Positions 283 to 30,688 of a DNA stretch of 35,227 bases are shown here, one piece after another. The stretch covers positions 1 through 35,227 of the forward strand of contig JAAUQT010000035.1 in NCBI GenBank assembly GCA_012033495.1, written 5' to 3'. The notes beneath the pieces are model-generated. The model saw nothing but the letters and a program-made list of their open reading frames with translations, was not told the origin of the DNA and made no database searches. How positions within the stretch are numbered: the stretch's first letter is position 1; each line of letters starts with the position of its first letter. The translations under genes and the position numbers were made by a program. The DNA is from Cyanobacteria bacterium RM1_2_2. GTDB lineage: Bacteria > Cyanobacteriota > Cyanobacteriia > Elainellales > Elainellaceae.

Positions 283-2829
283 GTGAGTAAAAATATTTTG
301 TCAAACAAAACTTTAATCAGCAGTATTACATTGAATGAGCAAGCAACGGTTGATCTAGTTCAACCTGCGCCTGCTTTTAAAGTTGGGGCGATTCGATCAG
401 GTGATCAGTTTGATCGAATCGATCAGGTTACAACATTTATCCGTAACCCAAACATCATCAAACAACCTATCAGCAAACTTCCAACGCTGCAACCGACCGT
501 CACAATTCGACCTGAACAAACTCGTTGGGTTAATCCTAGACTGGGGCTAGAGATTGCTAACATTCGTGAGCATAAGCTTGGCATTGCTCGTGACCAAGTG
601 ACAGTGCCCGTTAGCCCCACATTTGAGGTGACAGACACAACGCTATTTGAAGATCCGAAAAACGCCACCCAAAAGTTTTATTTACCTCGCTATCGGTTGG
701 TGGATCGCAATCAGCAAGTTCAAATGGCTTTGACCGCGAATGGTCAACAGTGGCAGTTAGTGATCCATCTAGAACAATATCCGGCTGCCTCATTGTCAAC
801 TACGGTACGAGATGCCAGAGTAATCGACCACACGGTTAGCGTCATTTTAGAGCATCGACTGTTGGCAGGGGATGTGAATGGCGGGAAGAGAGAGTGGGTA
901 TTCCCTGAAGTTACAGCCGAGTCGGGAGAATTGCTTGCTGTCCTGCCGATTGCCACCCGTGATGAACGAGATTTGCTTTATCAAGCCCTTACAGAAGCAG
1001 CTTATGGAGCGAACCTGATTATTCGACGCTCCATCAACGTAGCCATTCCGAGTCCATCTGCCCATAGCTCTAGCCCAGTCTTCAGTTATCCTGATGCCAA
1101 TGAAACGGCAATTGCACCGGGTCAGAACTTCAAGCAAATTACGATCGTTTACCCCCAACCTGATTGGATTGGCTTTGAGATCGAGTTTCAGGGAAGGTCT
1201 ACTCTTAGCCAGTTCTTCCTATATTTTTCGACAACAGACCAGAGAGGGGCGGAGATTGCCGTCCGGTGCTATGGCAACGCATTTGAGGTTGCTGCTGCGA
1301 CTCAACCAGGACTCCACAATCAGGTTGTTTATCGCGGTGTGCCTGTCATTTCTGAGAACCGCTATGCCTTTGTTATCCCCTGGCAGCCAGTATTTGGGGA
1401 GTTAGAGCAAGCCGCGTTATGGCTGTTTGCAATGGATGGGCGCGATCGATTACCCGATCAGGGCGAGATTAGCTTTAGCCGCAGCATGACGCAGCAAGCT
1501 CCTTTATATCGGCAAGTGACGCGAGTGTTGGATGATACTCCTCGCGCACCCTTTGTTTTTCCAGCGGCGTTATACGGCTACATTTTTCAGGGAATTACAG
1601 GGACACCGACTAAAGACTTTAAACCTATTCCGTATCCAGCGAATGGTCACAGTTATTATCAAGATCCTGTCCAAAAGTATTTGTTTTATTATTTACCCGA
1701 TAGCTTCAAATTGGTGCGTCGTCCAGAGTCGCCTCATTATCCGATGGTGTCGGTTCGGTTTAATTTAGGCGAAAATGCTGAAGATGTGCGGGCAACGATT
1801 GAGTACTGGGCATATCCTTATGTGAATGCGGCTCGCTTAGAAGCTGCCAGTGCTGCCTTAAACAAACCCCACATCACGGGGCCACTGCCTGAGGGAGTAA
1901 ATGGCATTGTTTTCCAGCCTTTAGTTGCCAGCAAACCGCGATTATTTTTAGGGTTGCCTCATGCAGAAGGAGGATTTCCGAATCAAGAGCGCCCTGATGT
2001 GTTGGTGGAATTACGAACGGGCTTTCGAGATTCTCTAACATTGTCACTGCCAGATTTTCAAACTGTTTACGACGCCTTGTTTGTGGGTGATACTCAGCTA
2101 TTTCAAGGATACGTTCAAGTTGATGCACCAGATGGAACCAAACCGATCAACTTCATTGCCCGCATGAATGATATGGTGGGTGATTGTTTTGATTATACGC
2201 AGGAGATTGATTCTGCCAGCGGAACGATTCATGTCACTTTGAAGAATGCGATTGAGAGCCCAGTTCAAGTCTCTCGCTTGGGGGTTAAGTTAATGCAGGA
2301 GTCGGCTCCAGTCCCCTGCACAATCACTGGATTCAGCGCCTCATCGCCAGTCACTTTAAAGCCAGAAGAAGGGTTGTCATTTACAGTAGTTCCTACGGTG
2401 GCGGTGGCGCTGACAAATTCGGTAGATCTAGTGTTTGATCTAACGGGCACTCAAATATTAACTGACCGCGAGGGAGTGTTTAATTCGATTCTGCGAGGAC
2501 ACACAACTGCCGTTTATAAGCGTCCCATTCTGATCAAAACCGATCGATCTGTCTTTGGCGATCGCATTCGGGTGATTAGCATTGATTTGAAGCAAGGCGG
2601 TTCCGTTGATTTTACACGGGATGATGCCCAACTGGAGGCAAAACAAGATGTGTTTGCTCCCATTAAAAATTTAATTGTGGGAAATGCGGATGGGGGCACT
2701 TACGAATATCGCGTCACGCTGATTCTCACGGACGGTCGCAAGGTTGAAGATCCGGTTGATAGTTGGCGAACAACCACCTCCGAGCCGCTGTGGATTACGC
2801 ATTCAGAACTGCCTACCATCGCGCCCTAA
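283..2829 (+). CDS. Cluster gene 1: large modular protein of unknown function (848 aa)
   Basis: I do not recognise a named family. The GTG start is supported by AAGGAG at 272-277. No signal peptide or membrane segment is visible. There is an FYLPRY motif at about residue 132, matched by FYIPRY in gene 2. A central 'domain A' starts with SYYQDP near residue 455 and has FYYLP near residue 468; 'domain B' (LSLPDFQTVYDALF) starts near 587. The last ~100 residues form a beta-sandwich-like module ending in YEYRVTLILTDGRK, which is the same module repeated in genes 5-7. Residues ~430-650 align with gene 2 throughout (PFVFP, SYYQDP, LPDSFKL against PFVFP, SYYQDP, LPHSFKL). It is therefore a paralogue of gene 2 and a more distant one of genes 3-7. 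The stop is 43 bp before gene 2. Function unknown; a structural or binding role is only a guess from the architecture. Confidence 0.85.
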   Translation: MSKNILSNKTLISSITLNEQATVDLVQPAPAFKVGAIRSGDQFDRIDQVTTFIRNPNIIKQPISKLPTLQPTVTIRPEQTRWVNPRLGLEIANIREHKLGIARDQVTVPVSPTFEVTDTTLFEDPKNATQKFYLPRYRLVDRNQQVQMALTANGQQWQLVIHLEQYPAASLSTTVRDARVIDHTVSVILEHRLLAGDVNGGKREWVFPEVTAESGELLAVLPIATRDERDLLYQALTEAAYGANLIIRRSINVAIPSPSAHSSSPVFSYPDANETAIAPGQNFKQITIVYPQPDWIGFEIEFQGRSTLSQFFLYFSTTDQRGAEIAVRCYGNAFEVAAATQPGLHNQVVYRGVPVISENRYAFVIPWQPVFGELEQAALWLFAMDGRDRLPDQGEISFSRSMTQQAPLYRQVTRVLDDTPRAPFVFPAALYGYIFQGITGTPTKDFKPIPYPANGHSYYQDPVQKYLFYYLPDSFKLVRRPESPHYPMVSVRFNLGENAEDVRATIEYWAYPYVNAARLEAASAALNKPHITGPLPEGVNGIVFQPLVASKPRLFLGLPHAEGGFPNQERPDVLVELRTGFRDSLTLSLPDFQTVYDALFVGDTQLFQGYVQVDAPDGTKPINFIARMNDMVGDCFDYTQEIDSASGTIHVTLKNAIESPVQVSRLGVKLMQESAPVPCTITGFSASSPVTLKPEEGLSFTVVPTVAVALTNSVDLVFDLTGTQILTDREGVFNSILRGHTTAVYKRPILIKTDRSVFGDRIRVISIDLKQGGSVDFTRDDAQLEAKQDVFAPIKNLIVGNADGGTYEYRVTLILTDGRKVEDPVDSWRTTTSEPLWITHSELPTIAP

Positions 2830-2872
2830 CACCTTTATTTCCTTCACTCAGCCTCAACGCCAGAGAAATAAT

Positions 2873-5800
2873 ATGTCTAACAATCTGCCTCGGAGCCAAA
2901 TTACGGTTCCGATTTGTCCGGTGCAACCCGTGACTGACCAAATCCTATTAACCGCTGCAACTGACCCAACAAAAACCTTCTATATCCCCCGCTACTTACT
3001 GGTTGAAGAATCGCTGCCAGGTAAGCACCAGTTTCGGATTATCCTCAACCGCGAAGCGCAACGACGCGGCCTCACTGTGTTTCTTGCACCCACTCCAGCA
3101 TCAGAGTTGGGAACTGCTGCCCGTGACGCTCAGCCCATCGAGCTACAGACGCTTAAATTAGCACTGCAATACCGGATTCCAGGCAGTAGCACGGTCGAAA
3201 CACTACCGTTTCAAACCGTGAATCAGATCGGAGAAGAATTGCAAGCATTCCTGCAAGTTGATAGTTTGGCGAAGTTATCCCAACTGACGGTTGCAATCAC
3301 GGACTCTCATTACACCCCAACGCTTGTTGCGCATCGCCAGGTAAAAATTGCGCTGCCCGCTAAATCTTCGTTTGAGGGACAAGCACCTGAAGCAACTGAC
3401 TCTGAACGATTTGCGGCGATCATCACCCTGCGTTGCGAGGTTTTGCGGCAGCGGGTGGAAATTGCCCGTCGTGCTGTCATGGAGATACAACAGCCACAAA
3501 TTGAAGGATTGGCACTGAGCCGTCTCTTGATTCATCTCAGTAATCAGATGACCGCTCTCTGGCAAAGGATTGCTGGATTTGGATTGGGAACTGATCCTCA
3601 CAAAGAATCGATTCAAGTTTCCAGTTCTGGGTTGATTTCACCCGCTCCTACGCCAACTTTCGGGATTTCTGGATCTGCCGTAGGTATCGGCTGCCCTCGC
3701 CTCTATGAACGGGCGCTCAAGCTGACTAAGCTCTCCGCAACCAGCTTACAGGCGAAAACCGCTCAATTTGCTCAGTCAGTGCAAGCCTACGCCAATCCGG
3801 GAATTTATCCGCATCGAGAGTTCAGTGAGCGGGTGTTTAAGAGCCAGCAACAGAGACGAATTCCCAACTTCAGCGAGTATGCATCTGACTTACAGCAAGT
3901 CGATCAGTGGTTACTCACCTTGTTTAACGACCTCAATCAGGTGTTAGCTGAGGTTGCGCTCCTCTCGGCTCCATTGCCGCTCTCAGTGTCGCCGATTCCC
4001 CCTTATACGGTTATGAGTCTGCCAGTTGAGGAAGAATACGACATTGTTATGAGCCTTGCCACCCTGCGGAGCCGTGACTTACTTAAACTGACACAAAACG
4101 TGCGCAATCTGCTGCGATCTATCCAAAATGGTCAGATTGGGCAATCCGGACCGCTCAATCGCATCAATGATCTCAATAACAATTTAGTGGATTTGTGGTC
4201 TGCGATCGCGGGCTATGGGCTGGCAACCGAACCGTTTCCCAACTCGATTCAAGTTTCCAGTTCTGGGTTTACCGTTGCCAAACCTGCACCCGATTTTGGC
4301 TATGACACTGCTCATAAATCGTTTGGAATGCCCCGGTTGTATGAACGTTTTTTGCAATTGACTGGTGTGACTGGAGCAACTGCTCAAACCCAACGCCAAG
4401 CATTTAACCGTCTGGTGCAGCCCTACGCAAATTCAGAGGTTTACCCCCATCAGTCCTTTTATGAGCGCGCTTACAACGCCTACCGAATTGGAACAGATTT
4501 AGGAACGCCGCAGTACCAGGCAGATTTACAAGCGCTGAACATATGGCTGACTGATTTAGAAAACATATTACAGATTGTTCCTAAACATTTTACGGCAAAC
4601 GCTTCCTTGCCCATATCCCCGATCCCTATTTCAGAACTGGAAGCTGTTAGCACGATCGCCACTCTGCGACTTCGGATGCTGCTCCAAGCAGTTCACAACA
4701 CGCTGACTCAATTACAACCACACCTCACACCATCCCAGGGGCAGACAGAAGGGCAGAGGGATGCGAGAGCCTTCCAGAACGCAATGAACAACTTATGGGC
4801 AATGATTGCAGGCTATGGCTTAGGAACAGAACCTGTAGAGTCAGTTCAGATTACAACCTTCAGTTTCATGGATGGCAAGAAAGCGCCAGATTTTGGCATT
4901 TCTGGTGCCTATACCACCTTTGGGATTCCTCGCCTATACGATCGCTTCCTTCACCTCGCAGGGATTGCTACAGCAGAGGCGAAAACTCAGTCGGCACACT
5001 TTTCCGTTGATTTAGTTGGATTGTTTTGTGAACCTGACATCTATCCGTATGGAAAATTTGTAGAGCAACTAGAGCAGACCCAATACCAGCAAGGCGACCT
5101 GACCTATTTTGCTGATGCCAATAACTTGCTGCTCAAATTACAAGAAATCTTGCAAGCAGCCCTCACCCTGTTTCAATTGCCGGAGCTAACAGAACCCCTG
5201 TTTCGGGAAGAGACATTGGTGCTGGAACAGGTAATTGAGCCTCGCCCCTTTGTGTTTCCCTATCTGGCAGATGCGCTTAACTCAGAAACAAATTTAATTT
5301 TGCGTCCCGTCACTTGGAAAGGAGAATCCTACAGCTATTATCAAGATCCGATCCAATCTCATCTCTTCAAGTATTTACCCCACAGTTTTAAGCTGGCGCG
5401 GCTGGCGTCATCTCCAAGTTATCCAGATATGTCAATCCAGTTTCTCTGGCAGGATCAAGCCTCGGAACCCGATCGCGTGCAGTTGACCTATCGCGCCGTT
5501 CCCTGTGTTGATCAACAGCGACGGATGGAAGAGAAAGTGCAACTGAAAACCTTTACTAGCCGCGAACCTGAATTTGAACCCCTGGTTGCCAGATCGTATC
5601 TGCAAATTAAGTTGAATCCAACTTTGAGTGATACTGCCATTCATAAGAAAGATCCCATTGATCTACGTCAGGACTTTGAAGATACCTTGGTTCTCAAGTT
5701 TTCAGGCTTCATCGAACTCTTCAATCGTCTGTTTAGTACTGCCTCAATTCTCAAGGGAGAAATTGTCGTTGAAGCCGATCGCCAGGAAGTGATTCCAGTT

Positions 5801-6214
5801 GTCTTTCAAATCAACGATCTAGGCTGGCTGTCCGGCTCTGAACCATCCAATTTAGTAGAACCGGATCGAGAATCTCTCCTGAACCACCTTTTGGCAGATC
5901 AGCCCCTGATTCAAACCAAGACAACGATCACAGTCAGCACCTTTTCTTATTTGTTCGATTCACCGAGCGATCAACCCGATAATCCAGTCACGAACATTTT
6001 GGTTGACTTCTTGGAGTATGGTGGCGTAATTTCACTCACTTCTGAAAAACTGAGCGAGAAAATTACGCTAGAGATACCCATTAAAGAACGAATTCTGAGT
6101 CAGTCGAGCAAAGGTACTTTTCGCTATAAAACAATTCCCATTCGGAAGAGCGGCAAGGGCAAGGAGAGCGCTGAATTGCAGGGTGACTCCGACATCTTCA
6201 TCACGGAGGTTTAG
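2873..6214 (+). CDS. Cluster gene 2: 1113-aa modular protein with three internal repeats
   Basis: Unrecognised family. I chose the ATG at 2873 (MSNNLPRSQI) because an upstream extension would overlap gene 1 and the first shared motif, FYIPRY, then falls at residue 36; the ribosome-binding site is weak. Residues ~183-362, 393-568 and 593-768 are three tandem repeats. Each opens with a helical A-T-L-R segment, then LW-x-x-IAG-F/Y-GL-x-T-D/E-P, then S-I/V-Q, then G-I/M/C-PRLY-E/D-R. After them comes the core shared with gene 1: PFVFP, SYYQDPIQ (~821), KYLPHSFKL, and domain B (FEDTLVLKFSGF). The C-terminus is hydrophilic and Lys/Ser-rich. No signal peptide or membrane helix is seen. It ends 4 bp before gene 3, and the gene 3 ribosome-binding site lies inside it, so the two are probably co-translated. 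Function unknown. Confidence 0.85.
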   Translation: MSNNLPRSQITVPICPVQPVTDQILLTAATDPTKTFYIPRYLLVEESLPGKHQFRIILNREAQRRGLTVFLAPTPASELGTAARDAQPIELQTLKLALQYRIPGSSTVETLPFQTVNQIGEELQAFLQVDSLAKLSQLTVAITDSHYTPTLVAHRQVKIALPAKSSFEGQAPEATDSERFAAIITLRCEVLRQRVEIARRAVMEIQQPQIEGLALSRLLIHLSNQMTALWQRIAGFGLGTDPHKESIQVSSSGLISPAPTPTFGISGSAVGIGCPRLYERALKLTKLSATSLQAKTAQFAQSVQAYANPGIYPHREFSERVFKSQQQRRIPNFSEYASDLQQVDQWLLTLFNDLNQVLAEVALLSAPLPLSVSPIPPYTVMSLPVEEEYDIVMSLATLRSRDLLKLTQNVRNLLRSIQNGQIGQSGPLNRINDLNNNLVDLWSAIAGYGLATEPFPNSIQVSSSGFTVAKPAPDFGYDTAHKSFGMPRLYERFLQLTGVTGATAQTQRQAFNRLVQPYANSEVYPHQSFYERAYNAYRIGTDLGTPQYQADLQALNIWLTDLENILQIVPKHFTANASLPISPIPISELEAVSTIATLRLRMLLQAVHNTLTQLQPHLTPSQGQTEGQRDARAFQNAMNNLWAMIAGYGLGTEPVESVQITTFSFMDGKKAPDFGISGAYTTFGIPRLYDRFLHLAGIATAEAKTQSAHFSVDLVGLFCEPDIYPYGKFVEQLEQTQYQQGDLTYFADANNLLLKLQEILQAALTLFQLPELTEPLFREETLVLEQVIEPRPFVFPYLADALNSETNLILRPVTWKGESYSYYQDPIQSHLFKYLPHSFKLARLASSPSYPDMSIQFLWQDQASEPDRVQLTYRAVPCVDQQRRMEEKVQLKTFTSREPEFEPLVARSYLQIKLNPTLSDTAIHKKDPIDLRQDFEDTLVLKFSGFIELFNRLFSTASILKGEIVVEADRQEVIPVVFQINDLGWLSGSEPSNLVEPDRESLLNHLLADQPLIQTKTTITVSTFSYLFDSPSDQPDNPVTNILVDFLEYGGVISLTSEKLSEKITLEIPIKERILSQSSKGTFRYKTIPIRKSGKGKESAELQGDSDIFITEV

Positions 6215-6218
6215 GGTC

Positions 6219-8039
6219 ATGTCTCTGCGAGGCTTACCCGATTTCTATCAGCCCATTCAAGGGGAAAGTTGGCAGGTCTTTTACCCCTACGAAGGGGGAG
6301 CGTTTGTGGCTGTGCCTACCACCATTGAATTGGGCGATCGGGAAGATGGTCAAACTGATTTCACGCTGACGCTGGTGCGGGGACAAAATCCTGATTTGCC
6401 TCCCAAACCGTATGGTTTACTGGATTTTCGCTTGCAGCCTCGCTACCCAATTGCTGAGGCTCTTACCGAGTTGCGATCGCGCCGTCCTGACGCAATGGTG
6501 CAGCCAGCGATGTTTACCTCTGGTTTTCTGCGGCTCTATCCCGCTACAACCGTCGAGCCGATTCCTGAAGATCTGAAACAACCCATACCGTTGGCGTGGA
6601 ATGGCTTGTCTACAGGGCGCTATAGTCTGCGAGCATCCGCTGCGACAATTACGCTGCTGAAAACAGCTTTAACTGGCACAGTGTTGAATCTGTTGGCTCA
6701 AGCAGAAATGGAGTTAGTAGGAGTAGCTCCTCGATTGCCTTTGCGGGTCAAGTTTAATCCGGCGATTCTGTTAGACCGATTAGCGGCATTAGGAGATAGT
6801 CAACGTCGGGTCGCTAGCGAAGACATTGTTGATTATTTGAGGAATTCAGCTTCGCAACCACTAGCTCTACCACTAGAAATTATTGGTGATATCACCGATA
6901 TCATTCCCAATGAATTTGCAGTCACATTCACTGACTGGATTCGCGCTCATTATGGCACTTTCATTCCCTCACCTCGCCTCGATCGCACTGGCTACATTGC
7001 TCTGGCTAGAGTAGAGCCGGACAGAATAAAGCCTGAAATCGTGGAATGGGACTTATCAAAACCCATACAAACGACTCGGACGATTGAGTTATCCTTACAT
7101 CCATTAGAAGCGGCTCGTCAAATTGTGGCGGAACGAGGGTTGGATGCCGTATTTCAGGAAGTGATTGTTCCCCAACTGCCGACTGGCGCGCTATCCGTTG
7201 AGGTGTCAGCCAATTTACCTGCTAAACGATTAGGGGTGTTAGCGATTGGCGTGACTCTGCGAGCAGTTCCATTTCTGCCTTATCGTCCTCAAGCTCAAGT
7301 TGTCTCTACCGAGTTTCAGCCTCCCCACGATTGCGCTCGTTTATTTTTGCGGCTATCTCCAATTGAAAAACCCGTCTATACGTTTGCCACCTATGTTGTG
7401 CTGCAAGATGCTCAAGGTGTACGCCAACTTCGCAGTGCAGAAATTTTTCATCAGGGTAATCAACTTGCGCTTCAGCCCAATCAGTTTCCCGTTAGCTTTA
7501 TTCCGATTTCAGCCACCCGATCGCTGCTGGAACAAGGCACAGTTGAAGGAATTTGTCGCTGGCAGGAAGGGCAAACGATTCAATCGCAAACCTTTGAGTT
7601 GAATCAGCAGAGTCCGGTCATTGCACTGACGCTGCCGCAAGCAGCCAGTCATCCAACGCTGGAATTTAATGCCTATTCTTTAGATCGCACCCGCAGTTTA
7701 GTCATTCCACCCATGCCAGCTAGAAGCTATCAACTCGGACTACACTCGTTTGTAGAGTATGGTTCCCACCTCATTTCGATTGAGTGTGAATTTAATGATC
7801 AGGCATCGTTTTACGCGATCGAACTTCTACCAGAAAATGCACCAGAAACCGAAGCCCGCCTGATCTTATTGACGCCTGACCACCCTCGTCAAACTTGGAG
7901 TTGGTTAGCCACGTCACCTTTCTATGCGGGCTACCGCTACCGACCACACCGCTCTCCTGACCGTCCTGTTGCTGACTGGTCAGATGTTCAGTCTCCCTTC
8001 ACTCCCCTCAAACTTCAAAGCCCCTCTGGAGGTTCTTAA
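6219..8039 (+). CDS. Cluster gene 3: modular protein of unknown function (606 aa)
   Basis: The ATG at 6219 is preceded by GGAGG at 6205-6209, inside the end of gene 2. Residues ~15-110 are a divergent domain A: VFYPYEGG replaces the FYYLP motif, but the following ELGDREDGQ and YGLLDFRL match KLGRREDNQ and GGFLMFDVNL of gene 7. Domain B (GRYSLRASAATITLLKTAL) starts near 134 and continues into RLPLRVKFN, aligning with RPAYSVRLN of gene 6. The remainder looks like at least two beta-sandwich modules; the last one (ISIECEFNDQ ... YAGYRYR) resembles the repeats of genes 5-7. No signal peptide or membrane segment. The stop codon overlaps the start of gene 4 by one base (TAATG). Function unknown. Confidence 0.83.
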   Translation: MSLRGLPDFYQPIQGESWQVFYPYEGGAFVAVPTTIELGDREDGQTDFTLTLVRGQNPDLPPKPYGLLDFRLQPRYPIAEALTELRSRRPDAMVQPAMFTSGFLRLYPATTVEPIPEDLKQPIPLAWNGLSTGRYSLRASAATITLLKTALTGTVLNLLAQAEMELVGVAPRLPLRVKFNPAILLDRLAALGDSQRRVASEDIVDYLRNSASQPLALPLEIIGDITDIIPNEFAVTFTDWIRAHYGTFIPSPRLDRTGYIALARVEPDRIKPEIVEWDLSKPIQTTRTIELSLHPLEAARQIVAERGLDAVFQEVIVPQLPTGALSVEVSANLPAKRLGVLAIGVTLRAVPFLPYRPQAQVVSTEFQPPHDCARLFLRLSPIEKPVYTFATYVVLQDAQGVRQLRSAEIFHQGNQLALQPNQFPVSFIPISATRSLLEQGTVEGICRWQEGQTIQSQTFELNQQSPVIALTLPQAASHPTLEFNAYSLDRTRSLVIPPMPARSYQLGLHSFVEYGSHLISIECEFNDQASFYAIELLPENAPETEARLILLTPDHPRQTWSWLATSPFYAGYRYRPHRSPDRPVADWSDVQSPFTPLKLQSPSGGS

Positions 8040-8896
8040 TGTCTACCTTACCCAATGGTGTTTCTTATCAAGGAATTTACTGTTACCGCAGTGACGATCA
8101 TCCAACGCAGGTCTATTACATTCCAGGCACGCCGATGCCGCAACGTAATGCAGATGGAGTTCCAGCGATTTCATTACTTACATTTGCTCAGATGGCAATG
8201 TTGCAATTGAGTAGTCAATGGGAGATTCCGGCGACTCATTTACAGGGGCTGAAAACCTATCTAGAGCAAGAGTTTGCCGATCTCAAGGCTGATACCCTTC
8301 AACTGACTCCGGCTCCGCTGGAAGTGGAAGCCGTCACCCTATCGCTGATGGATGCTAGCGGCAAACCTGAGGTGTTGGAAACAGCCCGATCGTCTGGGCA
8401 TCCACCCTACTCCACCGTATTCAGCGTGCAATTATCGAATGAACAGAAAGCTCAGGCAATTTCAGCGTTTAATGGACGCAAAAACATCCTCACTGTCACC
8501 TATGAAGCTTCTCTGCCCAAACAGGTCGTTGCTGAAGTGCACATGACTGGTAATGTGTCATCGTTACTCAAACGCTTCAGTAAAGATAGCCCCATATCAG
8601 AATATTTGCAGCAGATTGAAGCCGCAGTGGTTGATAAACAACTCAAGTTCGAGCAATCAATATCACCAGATACGCCTGACTGTTTGCGGCAAAAGACTGA
8701 ACAGCTCGCAAAAGAAAAAACCGCTGAATTGCTGCAACTCATGGTGAAGGGGGCAACGCGAGCCGATCCGAATCACCTGAAAGTTACGGCTCGTTTAACG
8801 GATACTGTACCGATCCCTGTACAACAATCGGCAGATGTGAGCACCTGGTTCCCGCAGGGCAAGGGATTAGACTATGTGCAATTGTTGGGTGCATGA
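8039..8896 (+). CDS. Cluster gene 4: minimal core member of the modular family (285 aa)
   Basis: The ATG overlaps the gene 3 stop by one base and has GGAGG at 8028-8032. This is the shortest paralogue. VYYIP is at residues 25-29, the same place as FYVMP, YYYLP and FWYLP in genes 5, 6 and 7. Domain B starts near 127 (VFSVQLSNEQKAQAI) and leads into ILTVTYEASLP. The middle is helical and charged (residues ~185-235). It ends 11 residues after FPQG (271-274), the motif that in genes 5-7 precedes the repeated beta modules, so it carries the core without the repeats. No signal peptide or membrane helix is seen. It is the last gene of the first block; a 351-bp spacer follows. Function unknown. Confidence 0.83.
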   Translation: MSTLPNGVSYQGIYCYRSDDHPTQVYYIPGTPMPQRNADGVPAISLLTFAQMAMLQLSSQWEIPATHLQGLKTYLEQEFADLKADTLQLTPAPLEVEAVTLSLMDASGKPEVLETARSSGHPPYSTVFSVQLSNEQKAQAISAFNGRKNILTVTYEASLPKQVVAEVHMTGNVSSLLKRFSKDSPISEYLQQIEAAVVDKQLKFEQSISPDTPDCLRQKTEQLAKEKTAELLQLMVKGATRADPNHLKVTARLTDTVPIPVQQSADVSTWFPQGKGLDYVQLLGA

Positions 8897-8903
8897 ACCA
8901 GAA

Positions 8904-8922
8904 TTAACCCCGATGGGTACTG
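8904..8922 (+). promoter_or_regulatory. 19-bp motif TTAACCCCGATGGGTACTG, copy 2
   Basis: Differs from the copy at 156-174 at one position (C for T in the loop). It begins 8 bp after the gene 4 stop and lies 325 bp upstream of gene 5. The ACCC...GGGT dyad is kept. It may be an operator shared by both blocks of the cluster. Confidence 0.4.
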
Positions 8923-9107
8923 CTTCACAGCAGTTAGTTTTCCATAATAGATCTAGAACGTGAGTTTTCAGCCACAAAAAACTCAGCAGGTAAGCATTCA
9001 TTCACACCTATTTGAGTGGTTTAGAAGTTCCTCAGAATGAGGGATTTAGAGGGCATTCACACCCTGATTCAGCAACGCCCTAACTTGAGATATCTGTGAA
9101 GGTAAAT

Positions 9108-9123
9108 TTGACTGTTCAGTCAA
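9108..9123. promoter_or_regulatory. Perfect palindrome TTGACTG-TT-CAGTCAA
   Basis: A 7-bp inverted repeat with a 2-bp centre in the 351-bp spacer upstream of cluster gene 5. The size fits a dimeric repressor or activator site. It lies about 125 bp before the start codon. No regulator gene is found nearby. Confidence 0.4.
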
Positions 9124-9173
9124 CAGTGAAGTAGACGTGCTTATCTAAGCGTATCTTTACGATCTAGACATTG

Positions 9174-9196
9174 AGTAATTTATCTAAAAAATTACT
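9174..9196. promoter_or_regulatory. AT-rich palindrome AGTAATTT-N7-AAATTACT
   Basis: A perfect 8-bp inverted repeat, 51 bp upstream of the gene 5 start. It would form a weak hairpin in a leader RNA or serve as a protein-binding dyad. With the palindrome at 9108 and the repeat at 8904 it suggests that the second block has its own promoter here. Confidence 0.35.
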
Positions 9197-9247
9197 TTGT
9201 CATTCAAAACTTACTAAATTTCCAATACACAACCAGGAGAAAGCTAC

Positions 9248-11512
9248 ATGTTAGCAATTGACAATATTCAAGTTATTGAAGGTGTAACCGTCTATGGTGA
9301 CGATGAAGATCTGACTAAGTTTTACGTGATGCCGGATGTACCCCGGTTTCGCATGAATGAGTCAGGGAAGCCTTCGTTTGCTTTCTACAAATATCGCAAT
9401 CCGATTGATCGGGCTGATGAGTCAAAAGGCGGCGGTTTTCTGATTTGCGATGTTGAGTTTTCATTGACGCCAGAGAAACAGCAAGCGGTGGTTGCTGCCC
9501 TGCAAGAACAGCTAAATCAAAAGTTTCCCAATCGTGACCCAAAGCCACAGGTGAAGATTGGGGCAATGACCTACACCAAAGGAACCGCGAAACTCAATGT
9601 TGAGAACATTAGCGAGAAGTTTGTTGAGAAGGTATTTAACCCTGGTAAACCTTCACTGTATGGTCGCAACATTACGCCTTTCACCGTAGAACTAACCGAT
9701 CAGGGGGCAACTTTCTTCGAGCAGGCCTTGCAAAACAAAGGCGGATTTGTGCAAATTGCCTATGATTTGTGCGCGCCTGTGAAATTGCCCCCGATCGAAG
9801 TTCACATCTGGTTCGTGGCTAGCAAGTTCATGGAGTTTACTCAGGAGTTTGAGAAACGACAAACTCGCCAAGGCGCGTTTGCTTCCGTCTGGAAATGGCT
9901 GTTTGGCGGCACGAGCGGCAATCGAACCGAGATCACCCAGAGTATGGAAGAAGAATCCAGAGAATATCAATGGGGTGGCGTTGACATTGACTTCAAAGAT
10001 TTCAAGGCAACTGAAGAAACAAAGCAACGCATTCGAGATTGGGCTTGGGCATCTTTAGCAGAAGCCGTGAAAGCCAGTCAAGAAATGAAGCTGGATGTGA
10101 TTAAGGAGGAACAGAAGAAGATTCCTGACAATCTGACTGACTTTAACAATCGCATCAGTCAGTTTAAGTTCTCTAGCTACGATCAGAAATATCGAGAGAG
10201 TCAGGCGGTCGAGTGGAATTTTGCACCTCAGGGAATGCTGGAACCGATCGTTAATTTGAAGGATCAAGATGGCAACCTGCTGAAGTGGGAAGATTACAGC
10301 ACGATTGTAGATCTGGATGATCCCTTCTTCAAGAGCCTTGATATCGCTGTCACCGTCAATGCTGATTTCAAAGATTTGCCGATTCATAGCGTTGATGTGT
10401 TCTGTGAATATCAAGAAGGACGGACGAAGGAAAGCAAAGGCTTCACGATCAAGAGTCCCGATCAGATTGAGCGGTTTAAGTCCTTTATTGAGAACAACAA
10501 GTGGGATTACAAGTACTGGTATCAGGTCAACTATAAGGGCGAAAGCAATGCGTATAAATCGCCTGAATTAGTGGGTAAGGGTGGTCGCACCAGTCCTTTA
10601 ACCATTAACGTTGGCGATACGGGAATTCTGGCGGTGGATGTGACCGCTGGAGATTTGAACTGGAATCAGGTGACACAAGCTCAAGTCACGATGGAATATG
10701 ATGCAGTCGGTGCAGGCAATCGCAAGGTTCAGCATGAGTACATTTTGGATAAAGAGCATCCTAGGCACACACTGCGAGAAGTGATTTTCACGCCGGTCAG
10801 TGAGCCATACAAGTATCGAGTGAAATACTTTATGGCAGATGGCAAAGAGTATGAGGTGAGTGAGAAAACCTCGGATGCACCAAGACTGTTTGTCAATGAT
10901 CCCTTTAGCACAATGAAGCGGATCAACTTCCTGGCAGTTGGGAATCTGGATAGCGAGATTCAAACCATTTTCGTGGAAGCGAAATATGTCGATGAAAAGA
11001 ATGACTACGTGAAGACCACAACAATTGCCCTCAGTAAGTCTACACCATTCTTTGAGTGGGAGTTTCCCGCAATCGATGAGCAGCTAGGAGCCGTCACTTA
11101 CAAAGGTTTGATTCAGTACATGAACGGACAAACCGAAACGATTACAGAAGCCACAACCCAAGACCAGAGCATTCCAGTCGGGCAAAAGATCGAAGATGTG
11201 TTAGCAGTTCGGGTACAGCCCATCGGGATTGACTTTAGAAACACGGTGACAACGGTGATTGTGTCGCTCCGGTATGTGGATGAGACTCATCGCGTTGATG
11301 AATCTTGGGATTTGATCTTTGATGCGGCTGATTCAGCCTCTCAAAAGCCTCAAAGCTGGACACTGCCCCTCAAAGACAAAACCAAGACGGAATACGAGTG
11401 GAGCGCCATGTTCTTCCTGAATGATGGCTCTGAGCGTCATATCGCTCCGCAAAAAACTCGGCAACTGACGATTCCGCTGCGGATGCCAGTTGCGGCTGCG
11501 GCTGGTCGCTAA
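9248..11512 (+). CDS. Cluster gene 5: modular protein with repeated beta modules (754 aa)
   Basis: ATG with AGGAG at 9235-9239. Domain A has FYVMP at residues 25-29, then FAFYKYR and GGGFLICDVEF. Domain B (FTVELTDQGATFFEQAL) starts near 144. A charged, largely helical segment (~190-300) follows, then FAPQG (326-330) and VDLDDPFF (from 354). Residues ~360-745 contain about four tandem beta-sandwich-like modules, visible as repeated ends such as KYWYQVNYKG, YKYRVKYFMADG, VTYKGLIQYMNG and YEWSAMFFLNDG. There is no signal peptide or membrane helix, so it is cytoplasmic unless exported by an unconventional route. It is nearly the same length as frame-corrected gene 6 (753 aa). Function unknown. 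Confidence 0.85.
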   Translation: MLAIDNIQVIEGVTVYGDDEDLTKFYVMPDVPRFRMNESGKPSFAFYKYRNPIDRADESKGGGFLICDVEFSLTPEKQQAVVAALQEQLNQKFPNRDPKPQVKIGAMTYTKGTAKLNVENISEKFVEKVFNPGKPSLYGRNITPFTVELTDQGATFFEQALQNKGGFVQIAYDLCAPVKLPPIEVHIWFVASKFMEFTQEFEKRQTRQGAFASVWKWLFGGTSGNRTEITQSMEEESREYQWGGVDIDFKDFKATEETKQRIRDWAWASLAEAVKASQEMKLDVIKEEQKKIPDNLTDFNNRISQFKFSSYDQKYRESQAVEWNFAPQGMLEPIVNLKDQDGNLLKWEDYSTIVDLDDPFFKSLDIAVTVNADFKDLPIHSVDVFCEYQEGRTKESKGFTIKSPDQIERFKSFIENNKWDYKYWYQVNYKGESNAYKSPELVGKGGRTSPLTINVGDTGILAVDVTAGDLNWNQVTQAQVTMEYDAVGAGNRKVQHEYILDKEHPRHTLREVIFTPVSEPYKYRVKYFMADGKEYEVSEKTSDAPRLFVNDPFSTMKRINFLAVGNLDSEIQTIFVEAKYVDEKNDYVKTTTIALSKSTPFFEWEFPAIDEQLGAVTYKGLIQYMNGQTETITEATTQDQSIPVGQKIEDVLAVRVQPIGIDFRNTVTTVIVSLRYVDETHRVDESWDLIFDAADSASQKPQSWTLPLKDKTKTEYEWSAMFFLNDGSERHIAPQKTRQLTIPLRMPVAAAAGR

Positions 11513-11625
11513 TCGGTCTGATGCTCGCTTCCCCGCCAACTTCTTAAAAACTCAACGCTGCTAATTCTGAAAGCGAATTTTGAGAACGTTCGGGGAAGCT
11601 GGCATATGCATACAAGGAGAAATTG

Positions 11626-13886
11626 ATGTTATACCTAAATCCACCGTTTCACATTATCGAAGGCGTTTCGATCTTTCCCGATCATGCCGATCGCCTGCAA
11701 TATTATTACTTACCGCTGATGCCGCAGTTGACTATCCTCAAAGATGGCAGTGGTGGTACTGTCCCTCAAATCCAGCTCATCAAATATCGCGGCAGGGCTG
11801 GCAATGGAGGATTTCTCAACTTTGATGTCAATATCGGGATTGATGACTCAACGCTGAGTAAGATTCGCACCAAATTACGCCAAGCTGCCGGACTCGATCA
11901 AGACCCGCGATTAGCGCCTGTTCAACTCATCGACGGTAGTGTCAAATTGTTGCTGTTGGGCAAACAAACCGGGGACGTGGCAAATCCTGATCCGAACGGT
12001 ACCCCTCAATTTGTGCTCAAAATTGACCAAGCTGCTAAACCGGCCTTGTATGGCTCCAATCAGGCAGCCTTTTCTGTTGCTCTCGATCAGTTTGGCGTCA
12101 CCGTGATGGAGAAGGCATTACAAGGAGAAATGACGCCGATCGGGATTGTGTATTCTCTCGATTATTTAGCGCTGCGTCCAGCTTATAGTGTGCGGCTCAA
12201 TGTGGATTGGGATCGAGTACAAAAGCGTTTAGATGAACAATTTAAAGTAGACGCGATTTTCACGTCGATTGAAATTGATAAAGCAGTGGATGAACTGATT
12301 GAAAAACGAGCGATTGTGCTGGAAGCCGACACCTTCATTCCCGAAGGTGAAGAAAACAGTGCGGTGTTAGGACGACGCGATCAGGCCGTTAACGAAGTGC
12401 GGGAAATGATTACGGATGGCTTTTTCCAGCCCAGCATTAATCCCGTTCAGGAAGCTAAAGATGGCTGGGATCGGGCGGCATTTCTAGCCGATCGCGTCTC
12501 ACGATTAGCAGTGACGGGTGGCTGGTCGTCGGTGGGCACGTTCTCCTACAAAAAGACAGATTACACCCGGATCGATCGTAAATCGCTTAATGTCAATATC
12601 AGCGAACGTACCACCGTTAAACGCAGCATTTATCCCCAGGGACACCTGAGTGGATTATGTCGCTTCCTGACGGAAGAAGGTTATGATCTCGACCGCTTTA
12701 TTGTTCCGGTTGATCTGGATGATCCTTGGTTTGAGCGCCGCAAACTCACGGTGATTTCTCGCGCCAACTTTGATGAAGATTCCATTAGTTCAATCAATGT
12801 GAATCTTAAGTATGGCGACACGCCACAAAATGTTCTGCTGGAATCTTCTACAGCTCGCAGTGAGGTGCAATGGGCTAGTATCCTGCAAGAGCAGGCGATG
12901 CAGCGAGAAGTGGAGGCTGAATACACCGTCAATTTTAAAGATGTAGACGGAGCAGAACGTCCTATATCAATCGCCTCCTCTCCTGAAATTGTCTCGGTTG
13001 ACAATCTGGAAATTAATCCGCGTAAGTTGTACTCAATTGTCCATGTTCCAGTGGTTGCCTTGAGTCTGCCTTGGAGCCGCTACCCTCAGGTAGAAGTGCA
13101 TCTTAAATACACGGATGAATCTAATCAGATTCGCATGGATGACATTCTAGTACTCACTGAAAACATCCAGATCAAACGTGGAAGATATTTATTAAAGATC
13201 CGTTGCGAACACAGTTTCAATACAAGTTAGTGTATCGGGCGAGCGATCATCGAGATGTAGAAACAGCATTTGTAGAAACGGATGAAGAGCGCGTTACCGT
13301 TCGTGATCCGCGTCCTAATAAACGGACTTTGAGTGTTGTGTCGAATTTAGATTGGGCAACGGTAGAGCGGGCACTGGTGGATCTGATGTATGAAGATCCG
13401 GAAAACGATGTGTTTGCGGATGCATCATTTGAGTTCAATGCTGACGAGAATGCATCGAAGAACTTTGTCGTTGATTTAGTTAATCCATCGCGTCGCCAGA
13501 TTGCTTATCAGGTCACGATTTTGTTCAAAAACGGTCGCCTGTTAGAAGTGCCTCGATCGCTGACCAACGATCGACGCATTATTCTTCGCAGTAATATGCG
13601 GGGACATCGCATCATTACAGTCCGTCCTAGACCTGTGGACTTTGCTAGTAAACGGTTGCGAGAAATCCAGGTTGAATTGCGCTATGAAGACATGAATGAA
13701 GGACTCAGCTTCTCGGAACTGGTCAGTTTGCTATCCCGCCATGAACAGGGAAGCTTCGAGTTTGACTATGCCGATGACCAGATTGCCTACGAATATCGCG
13801 TGACCTATTGGTATCTCAATGGCATGACTCGCTCAACGGGCTGGAACATCGCCAAAGCAACCGACTTATTCATTCCAGTAGCTTGA
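11626..13886 (+). CDS. Cluster gene 6: paralogue of gene 5, split by a one-base frameshift (753 aa if corrected)
   Basis: The ATG at 11626 follows AAGGAG (11613-11618). YYYLP is at 26-30, IKYRG and GGFLNFDVN follow, domain B (FSVALDQFGVTVMEKAL) starts near 149, YPQG is at 336-339 and VDLDDPWF starts at 362, all in the same order and spacing as in gene 5. As sequenced, the frame ends at 13230 after a non-homologous tail, and a second frame (open to 13886) continues the same family. Adding one A to the AAA at 13174-13176 joins them through I-K-T-W-K-I-F-I-K-D, restoring the module seen in gene 7 (F-W-K-L-R-L-D). The restored length equals gene 5. No slippery heptamer is seen, so a sequence error or a real mutation is more likely than programmed frameshifting. 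Gene 7 starts 22 bp after the stop. Function unknown. Confidence 0.75.
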
Positions 13887-13908
13887 GATTTACGGAAGGA
13901 GAATTTTT

Positions 13909-16900
13909 ATGCTGGTATTTGGGAGTAAAACCATTACCGTAGACGGCATTACAGTTTATGCCGATCATGCTGACCCTAACCAATTCTGGTATCTGCCTGG
14001 CCCGGTTAAACTGGGACGGCGCGAAGATAACCAAGCTTCCTTTGTGTTCATCAAATACAAACCTGCGGTTGTAGAAGCGGGTGTCAAAGGCGGCGGATTT
14101 CTGATGTTTGATGTCAACTTGCAGCTTGAACGATCGCTGGAGCAAAAAATCCTGTCTCAGCTTTCTGCAATCGCCCCCGATCGGCCTAAACTCGCGGCCG
14201 TTCCCTTTGATGAGGGCACCGTCCAATGCATTGCCTTGAATCTACAAGGGTCGGGCGGCACGACCGCAACGGCAACTCCCGGAACCTTTAATGCGGTTGA
14301 AAAAATTCTTGGGGCGTCTGTTCCGTCACTTGATGCCAAAAACACTGCTAGCTTCAGTTTGACGCTGAGCCAGGAAGGGGCAATTATTTTGGAAAAGGCG
14401 TTTCAGCAAGGAACGACCCCAATTGGAGCGCTCTACAACCTGAAATATACGGGGCTAAGACCTGCTTTAGATGTCAAAATTACGGCGGACTTGAAGCGGG
14501 TTTACACCCAATTTAGCGCCAGTTTAGAAGGGCAGTACTACTTCTTCAAAGTGGGCATCGAAGCCGCTTTTGAAAAGCTCGTTCAGGAAGGAGCCATCCA
14601 GATCGAGGTCATTAACTTCTCTGGGGCTGACGATCGCGTTGATAAGGAAAAGCAGGCAATTGAATTCTTCCGCGATCATCTGCTGCGGGATTGGTTTGTA
14701 CCCACGCTGGCACCTGGCCAACCCGCAGGCGGTATCCCAACCCCTCCAACAGGCAATCCTCCTGTTAGCAATCCTAGCAATCCTCCTGTTGGCAATCCTC
14801 CTGTTGGCAACCCCAATCCTCCCGGCGAAAATCCAACGAGCGGTGGGGAAAATTCGGGCAGCAATGGCGGCATTTCTCCTGCTATTTCTCCTGTTATTTC
14901 TCCTGCTATTTCTCCTGCTAAGGAACCGGTAGGCGTTGCCTCGCGTTTACACCATACCGTGTCATTTCGAGACATCTCAACACAAACTGACCCGGCTCCC
15001 GCAACCCTAGAAATCCTCAGACGCGCACCCGATCCTTTACCTGCCGGATACGGATTACAACATACCTCTACAACAGGCACAACCGAAACCCTCACCGTTT
15101 TGGGGGGAGCGAATCCAGTTGTTCGTGTGAATGGGCAGGTGCAAACACTCGATGCGAATCGGCAGTTCACCGTAGACGTTACGAGTAACAATCCCGCTAA
15201 TATTGTGGTGGAATATCCCCGCGCTACTCGCACCGAAACCTTCCATCTCTATTTTGACTTTGAATTACCGCGTGAGTCGGGTTGGTCAACGGCTTCTCCG
15301 GTCTACCGTAGCTACTTAAATAACACCACTTCAGACCCCCAATTTAGAAACACCGCCACCAATCGGACTGGAATTACTACCGTTTCGGGAACGCACATTT
15401 CGGGCGATGGCAATCAACTGCGAGATTGGGTTCGCAACCAGTTACTTGATCCCAAAGATGTGACGATCGAAGCCTATGCTAGCTTTGAAGACGAAACGCC
15501 ACCGGGCAGCAAGTTGACCTACAATCAAAAGCTGTCTCAACGTCGCCGTCAGGTCGCTGTTGGCATTGTTTCTTCTCTGGTCAACAGCATCAATGGGACG
15601 ACGGCGGGTAATGGCTATTTGCGGGCCAGAAATCAGGGGCGAGTGTCTGACCCCCGCGACCGGGTTGCCGAAATTACTGGACAAGTTGCCGACACCCCAC
15701 CCGCCACCCATCGAAGCGCGCCTCTCCCGTGCTGCCAACTCGACTCCCACTCCGACTCCTCCTACCCCAACTCCGACTCCTCCGACTCCCACTCCTCCGA
15801 CTCCCACTCCCACTCCCACCCCGACGCCAACTCCCACTCCTACAGCAGGTTCTCCTGCAATTGCGTTCAAACTTCGGTTTGTGCGTCAGGAGGAACAAAA
15901 GACGGTGACTTACCGCTACAACCGCACTGAAGCCGTTCAGCGAACCTATGCCCCGCAAGGACTGATTGGTTTACTGCTGGCAGATTTGCAGGACAAAGAG
16001 AAGCATTTTGTTGAGGTAGATCTGGATCATCCCTTCTTCCGAGTGTTTGCGGTCAACGTTGCAGCTCCCATCGACTTTCAGCGCATCGGACTCCTATCAG
16101 CCCAAGTGGCGATCGATTACGGCAACCCTAACGACGCCGCTAATCATAAACATGCCGATTTTGTGTTTGAGCCAGGAAGCCAGACCGAGCGCAAATTTGA
16201 GGTGTTCATGAATCAACAATTTGAGACTGCCTACACTTACTCAGTTCAGTATCATTTTGACCCAGGAAGCGATTGGGATGGACATGCCTTTGCCTACGAA
16301 CTCCCTGCCAAACGCACCGAAGATCGAACTTTGCAAATTCAACCCTTTGCCGATCTGGGATTTTTGGAAGTGCGCGTTTTCTCCAACCGGATTGACTGGG
16401 GCGTGATTGACTCGATCGATGGGCATCTGCATTATCAAAGTCCAACGGGCTGGAAGCGCGACAAAGCGATGACGTTCACCGCTGACACCCCAGCGCAATT
16501 CTGGAAACTACGCCTCGACCACCCCAACGAACGCACCTATTCCTACCATTGTGTGTATCATCTCAAAGATGGCTCTAGGCAAGAATCGGAAACAATCCTG
16601 AGTCAGGCAACTGCCTTACCCATCAATGATCTCTTTGAAGGTGCACTGGATCTGCAATTTATTCCGCTATTCAATGCAGATCAAGTTCGGATGGTCTTCA
16701 TTGATGTCAAATATGATGATCCTGTCAATCGCTATCACCGAGATGAACGATTAGAATTAGTTGGCACAGCAACGGCTCCTGTTTCACTCCGGATCGCGCT
16801 CAAAGATCGCACAAAACGTTCTTTCCAATATCGGTTCACCTTCATCGGAACAGATAATCGCCTAAATCGTGGTTCTTTCGTAACGACCCAAGAATCTCTC

Positions 16901-16924
16901 ATTGGCGTGTCGGACGCGAGCTAA
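13909..16924 (+). CDS. Cluster gene 7: modular protein with proline-rich linkers and an OmpA-like segment, split by a one-base frameshift (1004 aa if corrected)
   Basis: ATG at 13909 after GGAAGGA. FWYLP is at 26-30, GGGFLMFDVNL follows and domain B (FSLTLSQEGAIILEKAF) starts near 148. Residues ~270-340 are a linker of repeated NPPVG and ISPA units. Residues ~445-560 resemble an OmpA-C domain: strand FHLYFDFELP, then VTIEAYASFED and YNQKLSQRRRQV, which fits the N-x-x-L-S-x-x-R signature, although the usual T-D pair is missing. A (PT)n linker follows, then YAPQG (~681), VDLDHPFF (~703) and beta modules ending YTYSVQYHFD and YSYHCVYHLKDG. The initial frame runs into a non-homologous Ser/His-rich tail, stopping at 15930; the family sequence continues one frame over. 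Removing one C from CCCC at 15695-15698 joins them as D-T-H-P-P-P-I-E-A. If the OmpA-like reading is right, the protein may touch peptidoglycan, but it has no signal peptide. Confidence 0.75.
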
Positions 16925-30202: not shown

Positions 30203-30688
30203 TCAGTCGGCAGTCGTCTGCGACTTCAAGCGTTCCCACACCAGTTCAAAGACTGTGGCAATACCATCGCTCATGATTTCTGGCGTTCTCAATGTGATTT
30301 GATTACCGTTGAGAGTGAAGGTTCGCACTAATGTTGTCCGAACCCGATTAGGAATGGATGCCATTTCAAGATGATGATTCACGGTGTTGTCATTCACGGT
30401 ATACGTTCCGGCATAAGCATTAAATGTGGCAAATGCTTGGGCGCACTCTTCCACAGGTAGGGATTGAATCTCTCGACTCAAGGGCGATTGAATCTCCTTG
30501 CTAAACAGAGAACGATCGCTTCTGGAAAACATCACCATCATGTAACCGTCAGCGGTGTAGGTAATGTATCCTGTGGGATTTGCACCGTACACTTCAGAAT
30601 CAATCATTCCATCTGAGTGAATCGCAGTTGCAGAAATGAGCTTCCAGGTGCCAATCAGCGGGTTATTTTGAGTCGATCGCGTAGACAT
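30203..30688 (-). CDS. Lipocalin-like domain protein (161 aa)
   Basis: Small soluble protein of the lipocalin-like (Lipocalin_5) type. It opens with the GTWKLIS motif that begins such barrels, continues with GYITYTADGYMMVMFSR and YAGTYTVNDNTVNHH, and ends with ITLRTPEI and VFELVWERLK. No signal peptide. The start overlaps the end of the dioxygenase gene by 26 bp, so the two are almost certainly translated together. Proteins of this type often accompany catabolic or oxidoreductase genes and may bind small hydrophobic substrates; the ligand is unknown. Confidence 0.8.
   Translation of the reverse strand: MSTRSTQNNPLIGTWKLISATAIHSDGMIDSEVYGANPTGYITYTADGYMMVMFSRSDRSLFSKEIQSPLSREIQSLPVEECAQAFATFNAYAGTYTVNDNTVNHHLEMASIPNRVRTTLVRTFTLNGNQITLRTPEIMSDGIATVFELVWERLKSQTTAD

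Follow-up and report, generated by a model that had tools for sequence, protein, structure and literature searches.

A recurring bacterial gene cluster that probably encodes an undescribed multi-part protein machine

Comparison with described systems

In NctPC, an ABBA/DMATS-like prenyltransferase is coupled to an MstE-like monodomain cyclase, and this type of enzyme (Hubrich et al. 2024, as described in PMC13290415, section 8) prenylates and cyclises on tryptophan. At some of the loci studied here, two neighbouring genes suggest a similar pairing, one for a DMATS-like protein (X) and one for a protein with a D-x-D-D/S-T motif (Y). However, compared with NctPC, X and Y are separate genes, the similarity of X is weak and that of Y is firm only in genome G131. 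Moreover, their neighbours encode large core-family proteins, neither a precursor peptide nor a substrate residue was found, and the pair is absent from the window (the whole analysed stretch of 35,227 nucleotides from Cyanobacteria bacterium RM1_2_2).

The EAD1-trypsin fusions next to our clusters in Paracoccus and Caldilineaceae, and a STAND NTPase at the former, recall EAD-linked NTP-dependent conflict systems (Kaur et al. 2020, PMC7159879). The passages of that study consulted contain no description of the core family. As a further difference, EAD1 proteins were found at only 2 of our 17 loci, on neighbours only. None of the nine window ORFs carries an EAD, and an EAD on both an effector and a core component was not observed.

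Layout of the cluster and its shared core

The ORF listing confirmed that adjacent long genes, all on the + strand, fill positions 283 to 16,924. An earlier note made from this DNA alone had counted seven genes; there are indeed seven (g1 to g7), encoded as nine ORFs, as g6 and g7 each contain a frame break. The first gene, g1 (283..2829, 848 aa), has a C-terminal half paralogous to g2 and a module motif at its C-terminal end. The ORF of g2 begins at 2744, and with the ATG chosen at 2873 the gene covers 2873..6214 and ends in a g1-related part. Within it, three repeats of about 200 aa span approximately 3449..5254 (anchors at 3569, 4205 and 4805); they were undetected by self-BLAST and were revealed by direct pairwise scoring, with pairwise identities of 36-38% that exceeded all 200 shuffles in each case. 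No orthologue of g2 was found at the other loci compared. For g3 (6219..8039; ORF from 6183), the ATG at 6219 agrees with the orthologue starts, and profile comparison places a core at about residues 29-205 of the ORF.

The remaining genes were described in the earlier note as a core alone (gene 4) and as a core plus repeats (genes 5-7), and both descriptions hold. The window copy of g4 (8039..8896, 285 aa) is the core alone, while its orthologues are longer (479 aa in FACHB-471, 476 aa in Caldilineaceae). In its predicted structure, g5 (9248..11512, 754 aa) consists of a mixed alpha/beta core (residues 1-200, 9248..9847) and four tandem Ig/FN3-like modules at 10334..11476 (residues about 363-444, 451-549, 555-644 and 650-743). 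The first piece of g6 (11623..13230) contains the core and the first modules, and the second, in a different frame (13203..13886), further modules. Likewise, the first piece of g7 (13909..15930) comprises the core, a Pro/Gly-rich linker and a middle domain, and the second (15560..16924, different frame) a Pro/Thr-rich linker and modules. These interruptions could mean that the window copy is decaying, with real frame breaks and no product made, or that they are assembly errors, given that the g6 and g7 orthologues are unbroken single ORFs in five genomes (FACHB-471, G142, G224, G211 and Caldilineaceae). We regard this as quite unlikely: the reading frames of the other five cluster genes are uninterrupted, errors of this sort can occur in a draft assembly, and broken cluster ORFs are also found in the CSU_1_3 MAG and in an actinobacterial MAG. 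In agreement with the earlier reading that no member has a signal peptide or membrane helix, the hydropathy scan of the nine ORFs reached a maximum of 1.62 over 19 residues; for comparison, two genes of the window judged by eye to encode exported and membrane proteins reached 1.92 and 2.06.

To compare the seven proteins, profiles were aligned all against all, with orthologues standing in for g6 and g7 and g2 as a single sequence. A probability above 20% was obtained in 8 of the 21 pairs. The pairs g5-g6, g5-g7 and g6-g7 each gave 100%, g4 gave 94, 98 and 97% with g5, g6 and g7, respectively, and g3-g7 gave 59%, while the N-terminus of g3 matched the core profile at 93%. A core of about 200 residues is thus common to g4-g7 and, by profile, also N-terminal in g3. 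In contrast, g1 and g2 were joined only to each other (99.9%). The claim that they carry the core in their C-terminal halves was not borne out: the C-terminal half of g1 matched the core at only 29%, and the core profile reached neither the N-terminal half of g1 (4%) nor g2 (0.3%). With 29% as best probability, g1 and g2 were dropped as core members. The view that all seven genes are composed of one set of parts in a fixed order is therefore not supported, and these two are unproven members. What g1 does have in common with the g5-type modules is the motif at its C-terminus (38% in profile comparison), which also matched two stretches in an L055 protein (i-E 3.8e-4 and 5.2e-4). Of the short motifs ascribed to all seven, P-Q-G was read by eye in g4-g7 and not in g1-g3, and V-D-L-D-D/H-P-F/W-F in g5, g6 and g7 and not elsewhere.

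No library searched gave a family name for any cluster protein, the earlier note having likewise put no name to the system, and matches to well-characterised unrelated families, set beforehand as the refuting outcome, were looked for and none was found. Nor did we find a description of the cluster in the open-licence literature searched. The predicted g5 core had no fold match in the PDB at E<=0.001. The g5 module arrays, on the other hand, matched the tandem Ig/FN3 modules of adhesins, cytokine receptors and complement/macroglobulin proteins in fold; this likeness is generic (about 6-12% identity, TM-scores up to 0.22), and the core has no match of that kind. The sole match to the core at E<=0.001 in the viral library was the predicted structure of an uncharacterised protein of a giant virus, Medusavirus stheno A0A7S7YF07 (2.7e-5, probability 1.00, 14% identity over 218 columns). 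Because its TM-scores are 0.23-0.25 and its rmsd is 15.4, we treat it as a lead only.

The g7 middle domain was suspected by eye to be OmpA-like, but three orthologues gave no OmpA Pfam match, and this candidate was rejected. Their sub-cut-off Pfam matches (DUF6002, CBM_20 and Cementoin) were taken as chance, and the 17 PDB matches of the g7 profile (E 0.38-0.98) lie in its linker region. A phage origin was rejected, as g5 had no match among 50,697 phage records and no PHROG matched the window ORFs strongly (the best match, to a tail fibre family, had E 0.032 and was to the second piece of g7). Viral contigs gave three pattern matches, none of them related.

Distribution and neighbouring genes

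The order g1-g3-g4-g5-g6-g7 was found again in five genomes, four of them cyanobacterial and one from Chloroflexota, and subunits are conserved in part in Actinobacteria and Pseudomonadota. Hits were obtained in at least 11 of the 388 class genomes, a lower bound because the search missed G131; G289 and G321, which also had hits, were left out of the cluster-level examination. The family was not found in the four other genomes of the window's genus. In a midpoint-rooted core tree, g4, g5 and g6 each formed one clade with 100% support that united copies from cyanobacteria, Chloroflexota and an actinobacterial MAG; the divergent g5 of G131 fell outside the g5 clade, and the g6 of G131 was left out of the tree. 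The g7 clade had 100% support over six loci and 76% once G131 joined. These clades across phyla and the recurring gene order support the proposal that the cluster arose by duplication of one core, with synteny conserved as the earlier note had suggested checking. The subunits are thus ancient paralogues, every one of them maintained in its own right, as would suit a putative hetero-oligomer.

Neighbouring genes were counted at 17 loci in the fetched stretches, with family scans covering part of the neighbours. At 8 of these loci, X and a core-family gene are no more than about 2 kb apart, and Y follows X at five of the eight; at FACHB-471 and G001, X is present with no Y beside it. At G001, Caldilineaceae and an actinobacterial MAG, g7, a trypsin-like gene and X occur in that order. 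All five Y proteins contain the D-x-D-D/S-T motif. By sequence, Y is clearly MstE-like in G131 (4.2e-59), and a Y profile including G131 matched MstE at 9.3e-7. However, a profile of three other Y proteins without G131 had no PDB match at E<=1, and the Y proteins of Caldilineaceae and G131 did not match each other by tblastn. For the other four, the putative relation to MstE is based on the motif and on gene position. The apparent DMATS link of X is weak: matches to DMATS in the PDB ranged from E 0.32 to 1, the match to NCBIfam TIGR03429 (8.3e-4) scored 18.7 bits where the cut-off is 163.85, a second X gave 0.04, far below cut-off, and the X of G742 had no NCBIfam match. Among the 388 class genomes X occurs in three, each time within such a cluster. 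As G131 was recognised as a cluster genome solely through X and counted only afterwards, we do not rely on the corresponding Fisher test (2.3e-5).

X and Y might instead belong to a peptide natural-product pathway whose product is a peptide or small molecule with an isoprenoid modification, with the core proteins as carriers or binding scaffolds. Their adjacency recalls the NctPC fusion, and X was near core-family genes at all 8 loci where it was seen, two of which (G131 and a Calothrix cluster) were found through X. However, none of the short ORFs listed at six X loci stood out as a precursor peptide with a modified tryptophan, 9 of the 17 loci, including the window, have no X in the fetched stretches (and none was reported from the window's genome), and it would be unusual for such a pathway to include as many as six large scaffold genes. 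We consider this pathway unlikely.

Next to the Paracoccus cluster are EAD1-trypsin, EAD1 and STAND genes, and next to the Caldilineaceae cluster an EAD1-M10 and two EAD1-trypsin genes. S1 protease or trypsin-like genes occur at 4 of the 17 loci, one of them in the actinobacterial MAG, and 3 of 7 such proteins examined have the H, D and S motifs. This could indicate intracellular immunity, with core proteins that sense or execute and proteases and EAD1/STAND proteins that signal, comparable to the NTP-dependent conflict systems of Kaur et al. 2020 (PMC7159879). On balance we think this unlikely, given the two EAD1 loci and the EAD-free window ORFs. In addition, the other 4 of 7 trypsin-like proteins each lacked one or two of the triad motifs in the motif scan, and a PADLOC search with five window proteins and two g6 and g7 orthologues found no match at E<=0.01. 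The fetched stretches of 13 loci, the window included, gave no trypsin-family match, and the Paracoccus STAND NTPase had no tblastn relative in the other fetched stretches. STAND NTPase, HBL-like, PLD-like and tyrosinase proteins were each found at one or two loci.

A very unlikely explanation, in our view, is that the proteins form a surface matrix or adhesive in which tyrosinase, P450 and X cross-link aromatic residues oxidatively or through isoprenoids, with the proteases acting in maturation. It would account for the tyrosinase family protein adjoining the Paracoccus cluster, the P450 protein with a weak DyP-peroxidase match alongside the Pararhizobium cluster, the conserved Tyr and Trp of g5-g7 and the adhesin- and receptor-like modules. 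Each oxidising enzyme, however, is found at one locus, and the window ORFs have no signal peptide. As no secretion signal or membrane segment is apparent in them, an extracellular role would require lysis or an unseen exporter.

In G224, genes for gp25, Baseplate_J and Tail_P2_I lie downstream of g7, and the window's genome has contractile injection system (CIS) tube, hub and gp25 genes. That the cluster is a part or payload of an extracellular CIS nevertheless appears highly improbable. Although 7 of the 11 genomes searched carry gp25, only G224 has it beside the cluster, in a block that also contains a transposase; elsewhere it is on other contigs, mostly of draft genomes, and the CIS genes of the window's genome are likewise on a different contig. 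The window ORFs include no tube, sheath or baseplate genes, and g5 lacks a phage match. CIS membership was rejected for the location of these genes.

A putative scaffold and its implications

Given its recurrence in distant groups and the putative anchor-attaching enzymes next to it in some of them, the cluster is probably an undescribed multi-part protein machine. As to its function, we tentatively favour a heteromeric binding scaffold that is made in the cytoplasm, has conflict-related partners and is sometimes isoprenoid-anchored. In such an assembly, a platform would be formed by the packed cores, with the module arrays projecting as arms for binding to a surface or ligand. If the analogy with NctPC holds, X may prenylate an aromatic residue in one of the cluster proteins, and Y may then fold the prenyl chain into a polycyclic, sterol-like membrane anchor. 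The result would be a membrane-seeking scaffold for biological conflict with variable partners, of which the window copy would be the bare form. An unlikely, more far-reaching version is a new class of bacterial multi-subunit particle built from paralogues of undescribed core fold. In one lineage it would be lipidated by two enzymes acting on the intact proteins, with aromatic prenylation followed by terpene-type cyclisation, and the resulting polycyclic isoprenoid anchor would bring a changing set of partners, among them pore-forming-toxin-like proteins, to membranes.

Six proteins without a family name that keep one order in Cyanobacteria and Chloroflexota, and partly in Actinobacteria and Pseudomonadota, are rare. 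The proteases, EAD1 proteins and pore-former-like proteins encoded nearby suggest a role in bacterial conflict, and the core would offer structural studies a new target. If the X/Y pair acts on the core proteins, polycyclic isoprenoid modification would extend from short peptides to large proteins, and a testable substrate would be gained.

Gene layout, paralogy and the search for known families

The earlier note described seven adjacent genes on one strand, and this layout was borne out as nine long ORFs on the + strand from 283 to 16924 of the window (bases 1-35227 of contig C190, in a draft genome of 5.54 Mb and 335 contigs). Genes g6 and g7 each occupy two frames, and single-ORF orthologues of both are found in FACHB-471, G142, G224, G211 and a Caldilineaceae genome (Chloroflexota). 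The frame break in g7 adjoins a C-rich, Pro/Thr-coding simple repeat at 15690-15860, where g7 orthologues have proline- or glycine-rich linkers. Past 17 kb, the majority of the genes lie on the opposite strand and appeared ordinary on inspection by eye. Also by eye, a short ORF at 32449-33048 with the P-loop GIGGIGKSALA looks like an NB-ARC-like N-terminal piece with an early end, and another at 31607-31990 resembles the C-terminus of a GMC-type oxidoreductase and neighbours an intradiol dioxygenase-like ORF (30663-31577).

It had also been claimed that all seven products share the same parts. In the all-against-all profile comparison proposed for this claim, only 8 of 21 pairs exceeded 20% probability. 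The products of g5, g6 and g7 are full paralogues (100%), and g4 matches them over most of its length (94-98%). Residues 29-205 of g3 match the core profile at 93%, whereas the remainder of g3 has no match within the set (core 0.1%, modules 2.2%). The shared core thus stands for g3 to g7, but the claim was too strong for all seven, because g1 matches g2 (99.9%) and neither matches the core (29%, 4% and 0.3%). The C-terminus of g1 bears a motif of the Ig/FN3-like modules of g5-g7, and g2 has three repeats of its own of about 200 residues each.

No above-cut-off match was found for the nine window ORFs in Pfam or NCBIfam, and none was strong in PHROG. The best sub-threshold matches were ECH_0659 of NCBIfam for g4 (0.024), a PHROG tail fibre family for the second piece of g7 (0.032) and Pfam DUF5036 for the second piece of g6 (0.046); g1 matched a Tc-toxin repeat at 0.11. 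PADLOC at E<=0.01 gave nothing for g1-g5 or the FACHB-471 orthologues of g6 and g7, and the phage records searched with g5 gave no match. Against PDB sequences, profiles of g5, g1 and g3 had zero matches at E<=1, and the 17 matches of g7 (0.38-0.98) were located in its linker region.

Predicted structure of g5 and the core

The AlphaFold2 model of g5 (10 rows; mean pLDDT 74.4, pTM 0.37) has an alpha/beta N-terminal region followed by four tandem beta modules, with a weakly predicted helical stretch at about 205-305. Searched with Foldseek, it gave 138 PDB matches at E<=0.001. The 50 of these that were listed are repeat structures of the adhesin, receptor, complement and macroglobulin kind and their like, and their TM-scores do not exceed 0.22. 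Modelled by itself, the core (365 residues and 17 rows; mean pLDDT 74.5, pTM 0.59) reached a pLDDT of 83-93 at residues 11-120 and 141-180. This model had 0 PDB matches at E<=0.001 and 708 at E<=10; in the viral library, a single protein, from Medusavirus stheno, fell under 0.001 (2.7e-5, with a TM-score near 0.24). The core may be a new fold, or a known fold imperfectly modelled. None of the libraries searched gives any subunit a name, the core found no confident fold match, and the open-licence literature searched listed no paper on the cluster.

Distribution, gene order and tree

The cluster family is sparse. With the query genome included, 3 of the 36 genomes in the window's family gave matches, as did at least 11 of 388 in its class, a count without G131, which was found by another route; four other genomes of the window's genus had none. 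The class of the Caldilineaceae genome has matches in 2 of 396 genomes, query included, and an actinobacterial MAG also carries the family. Among 72,556 plasmid records it occurs in Pararhizobium, Paracoccus (two records) and Azospirillum, and the Azospirillum query adds Calothrix and a short piece in Bradyrhizobium.

We compared 17 loci: the window, FACHB-471, G001, CSU_1_3, the actinobacterial MAG, Caldilineaceae, G142, G224, G211, G294, G373, Pararhizobium, Paracoccus, Azospirillum, G131, G742 and Calothrix. The one-strand order g1-g3-g4-g5-g6-g7 is found in FACHB-471, G142, G224, G211 and Caldilineaceae; CSU_1_3 runs from g1 to g6, with the contig end near. No g2 orthologue is present at the loci compared. 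The order in G131 is g3-g4-g5-g6-g7-X-Y-g1, where X is a DMATS-like protein and Y carries a D-x-D-D/S-T motif; two small related proteins after this g1 (L072:14714-15962) had no family above cut-off. A 590-aa family (48% identity, no Pfam match) lies between g6- and g7-like genes in G294 (L053:13489-15279) and Pararhizobium (L056:20435-22198).

A midpoint-rooted tree of 47 cores places g4, g5 and g6 each in a clade of its own that spans phyla and has 100% support; the G131 g5 stands outside the g5 clade. Support for the g7 clade is 100% without G131 and 76% with it. The g4 (98), g5 (100) and g6 (95) of FACHB-471 join Caldilineaceae or actinobacterial copies, whereas its g7 joins other cyanobacteria (65). 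This different grouping suggests, but does not settle, horizontal transfer.

Neighbouring genes and possible roles

At eight loci (FACHB-471, G001, Caldilineaceae, actinobacterial MAG, Azospirillum, G131, G742 and Calothrix), X, a protein of about 340 aa, is encoded no more than about 2 kb from a core-family gene. Six of these loci were found through the core, so that the adjacency there was built into the search. When the 388 class genomes were searched for X, three had it, all inside clusters and including the previously unseen G131, and a plasmid search led to the Calothrix cluster. The window's own genome has no X at E<=1e-5. Similarity of X to DMATS aromatic prenyltransferases is weak but repeated. 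Y follows X at five of the eight loci; it is clearly MstE-like in G131 (4.2e-59), and the other four form their own family, all with D-x-D-D-T. A Y profile including G131 reaches MstE (9.3e-7), and a profile built from three Y without G131 finds nothing at E<=1. The review PMC13290415 describes NctPC, in which an ABBA-fold prenyltransferase is fused to an MstE-like cyclase; the protein geranylgeranylates tryptophan and then cyclises the chain. On the Calothrix plasmid, X, Y and a core gene of g4 type are followed by Gly-rich 309-aa, 346-aa and 1494-aa proteins (L074:14427-20975); the first two have no Pfam match.

Family scans covered part of the genes flanking the 17 loci. Trypsin-like genes occur at four loci (G001, Caldilineaceae, actinobacterial MAG and Paracoccus), at the first three of which they separate g7 from X, and a CarboxypepD_reg-like small protein adjoins one in G001 and Caldilineaceae. 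EAD1-trypsin-like fusions are found in Paracoccus and Caldilineaceae, and an EAD1-M10 peptidase fusion in Caldilineaceae. Paracoccus also has a STAND NTPase, a PLD-like gene and a tyrosinase gene, and Pararhizobium a P450 gene. An M15 peptidase gene flanks the G142 and G224 clusters on the opposite strand. Azospirillum encodes an HBL-family protein (E 2.2e-12), whose homologues in G742 stand in the same order ahead of a g5-like gene and X. The window cluster has none of these X/Y, protease, EAD1 or pore-former-like partners. In Caldilineaceae, a trypsin-like gene precedes the cluster, and more g1- and g3-like genes with two EAD1-trypsin genes follow it (L065:12155-13111, L066:1602-10699), an arrangement that resembles a second, partial set. 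Contractile injection system genes (gp25, Baseplate_J, Tail_P2_I) stand directly after g7 in G224 (L050:5988-10521); in the window's own genome, tube, hub, gp25 and baseplate homologues of such a system lie on C214 (L061:5704-14658), a contig separate from the cluster.

As the paralogues are old, separately kept and in fixed order, we infer from sequence that the cluster proteins would form a hetero-oligomer. The module arrays point to a binding role, and the missing signal peptides suggest that the proteins would assemble within the cell. The X/Y pair, proteases, EAD1 and pore-former-like neighbours suggest that part of the family may have a membrane- or conflict-related role.
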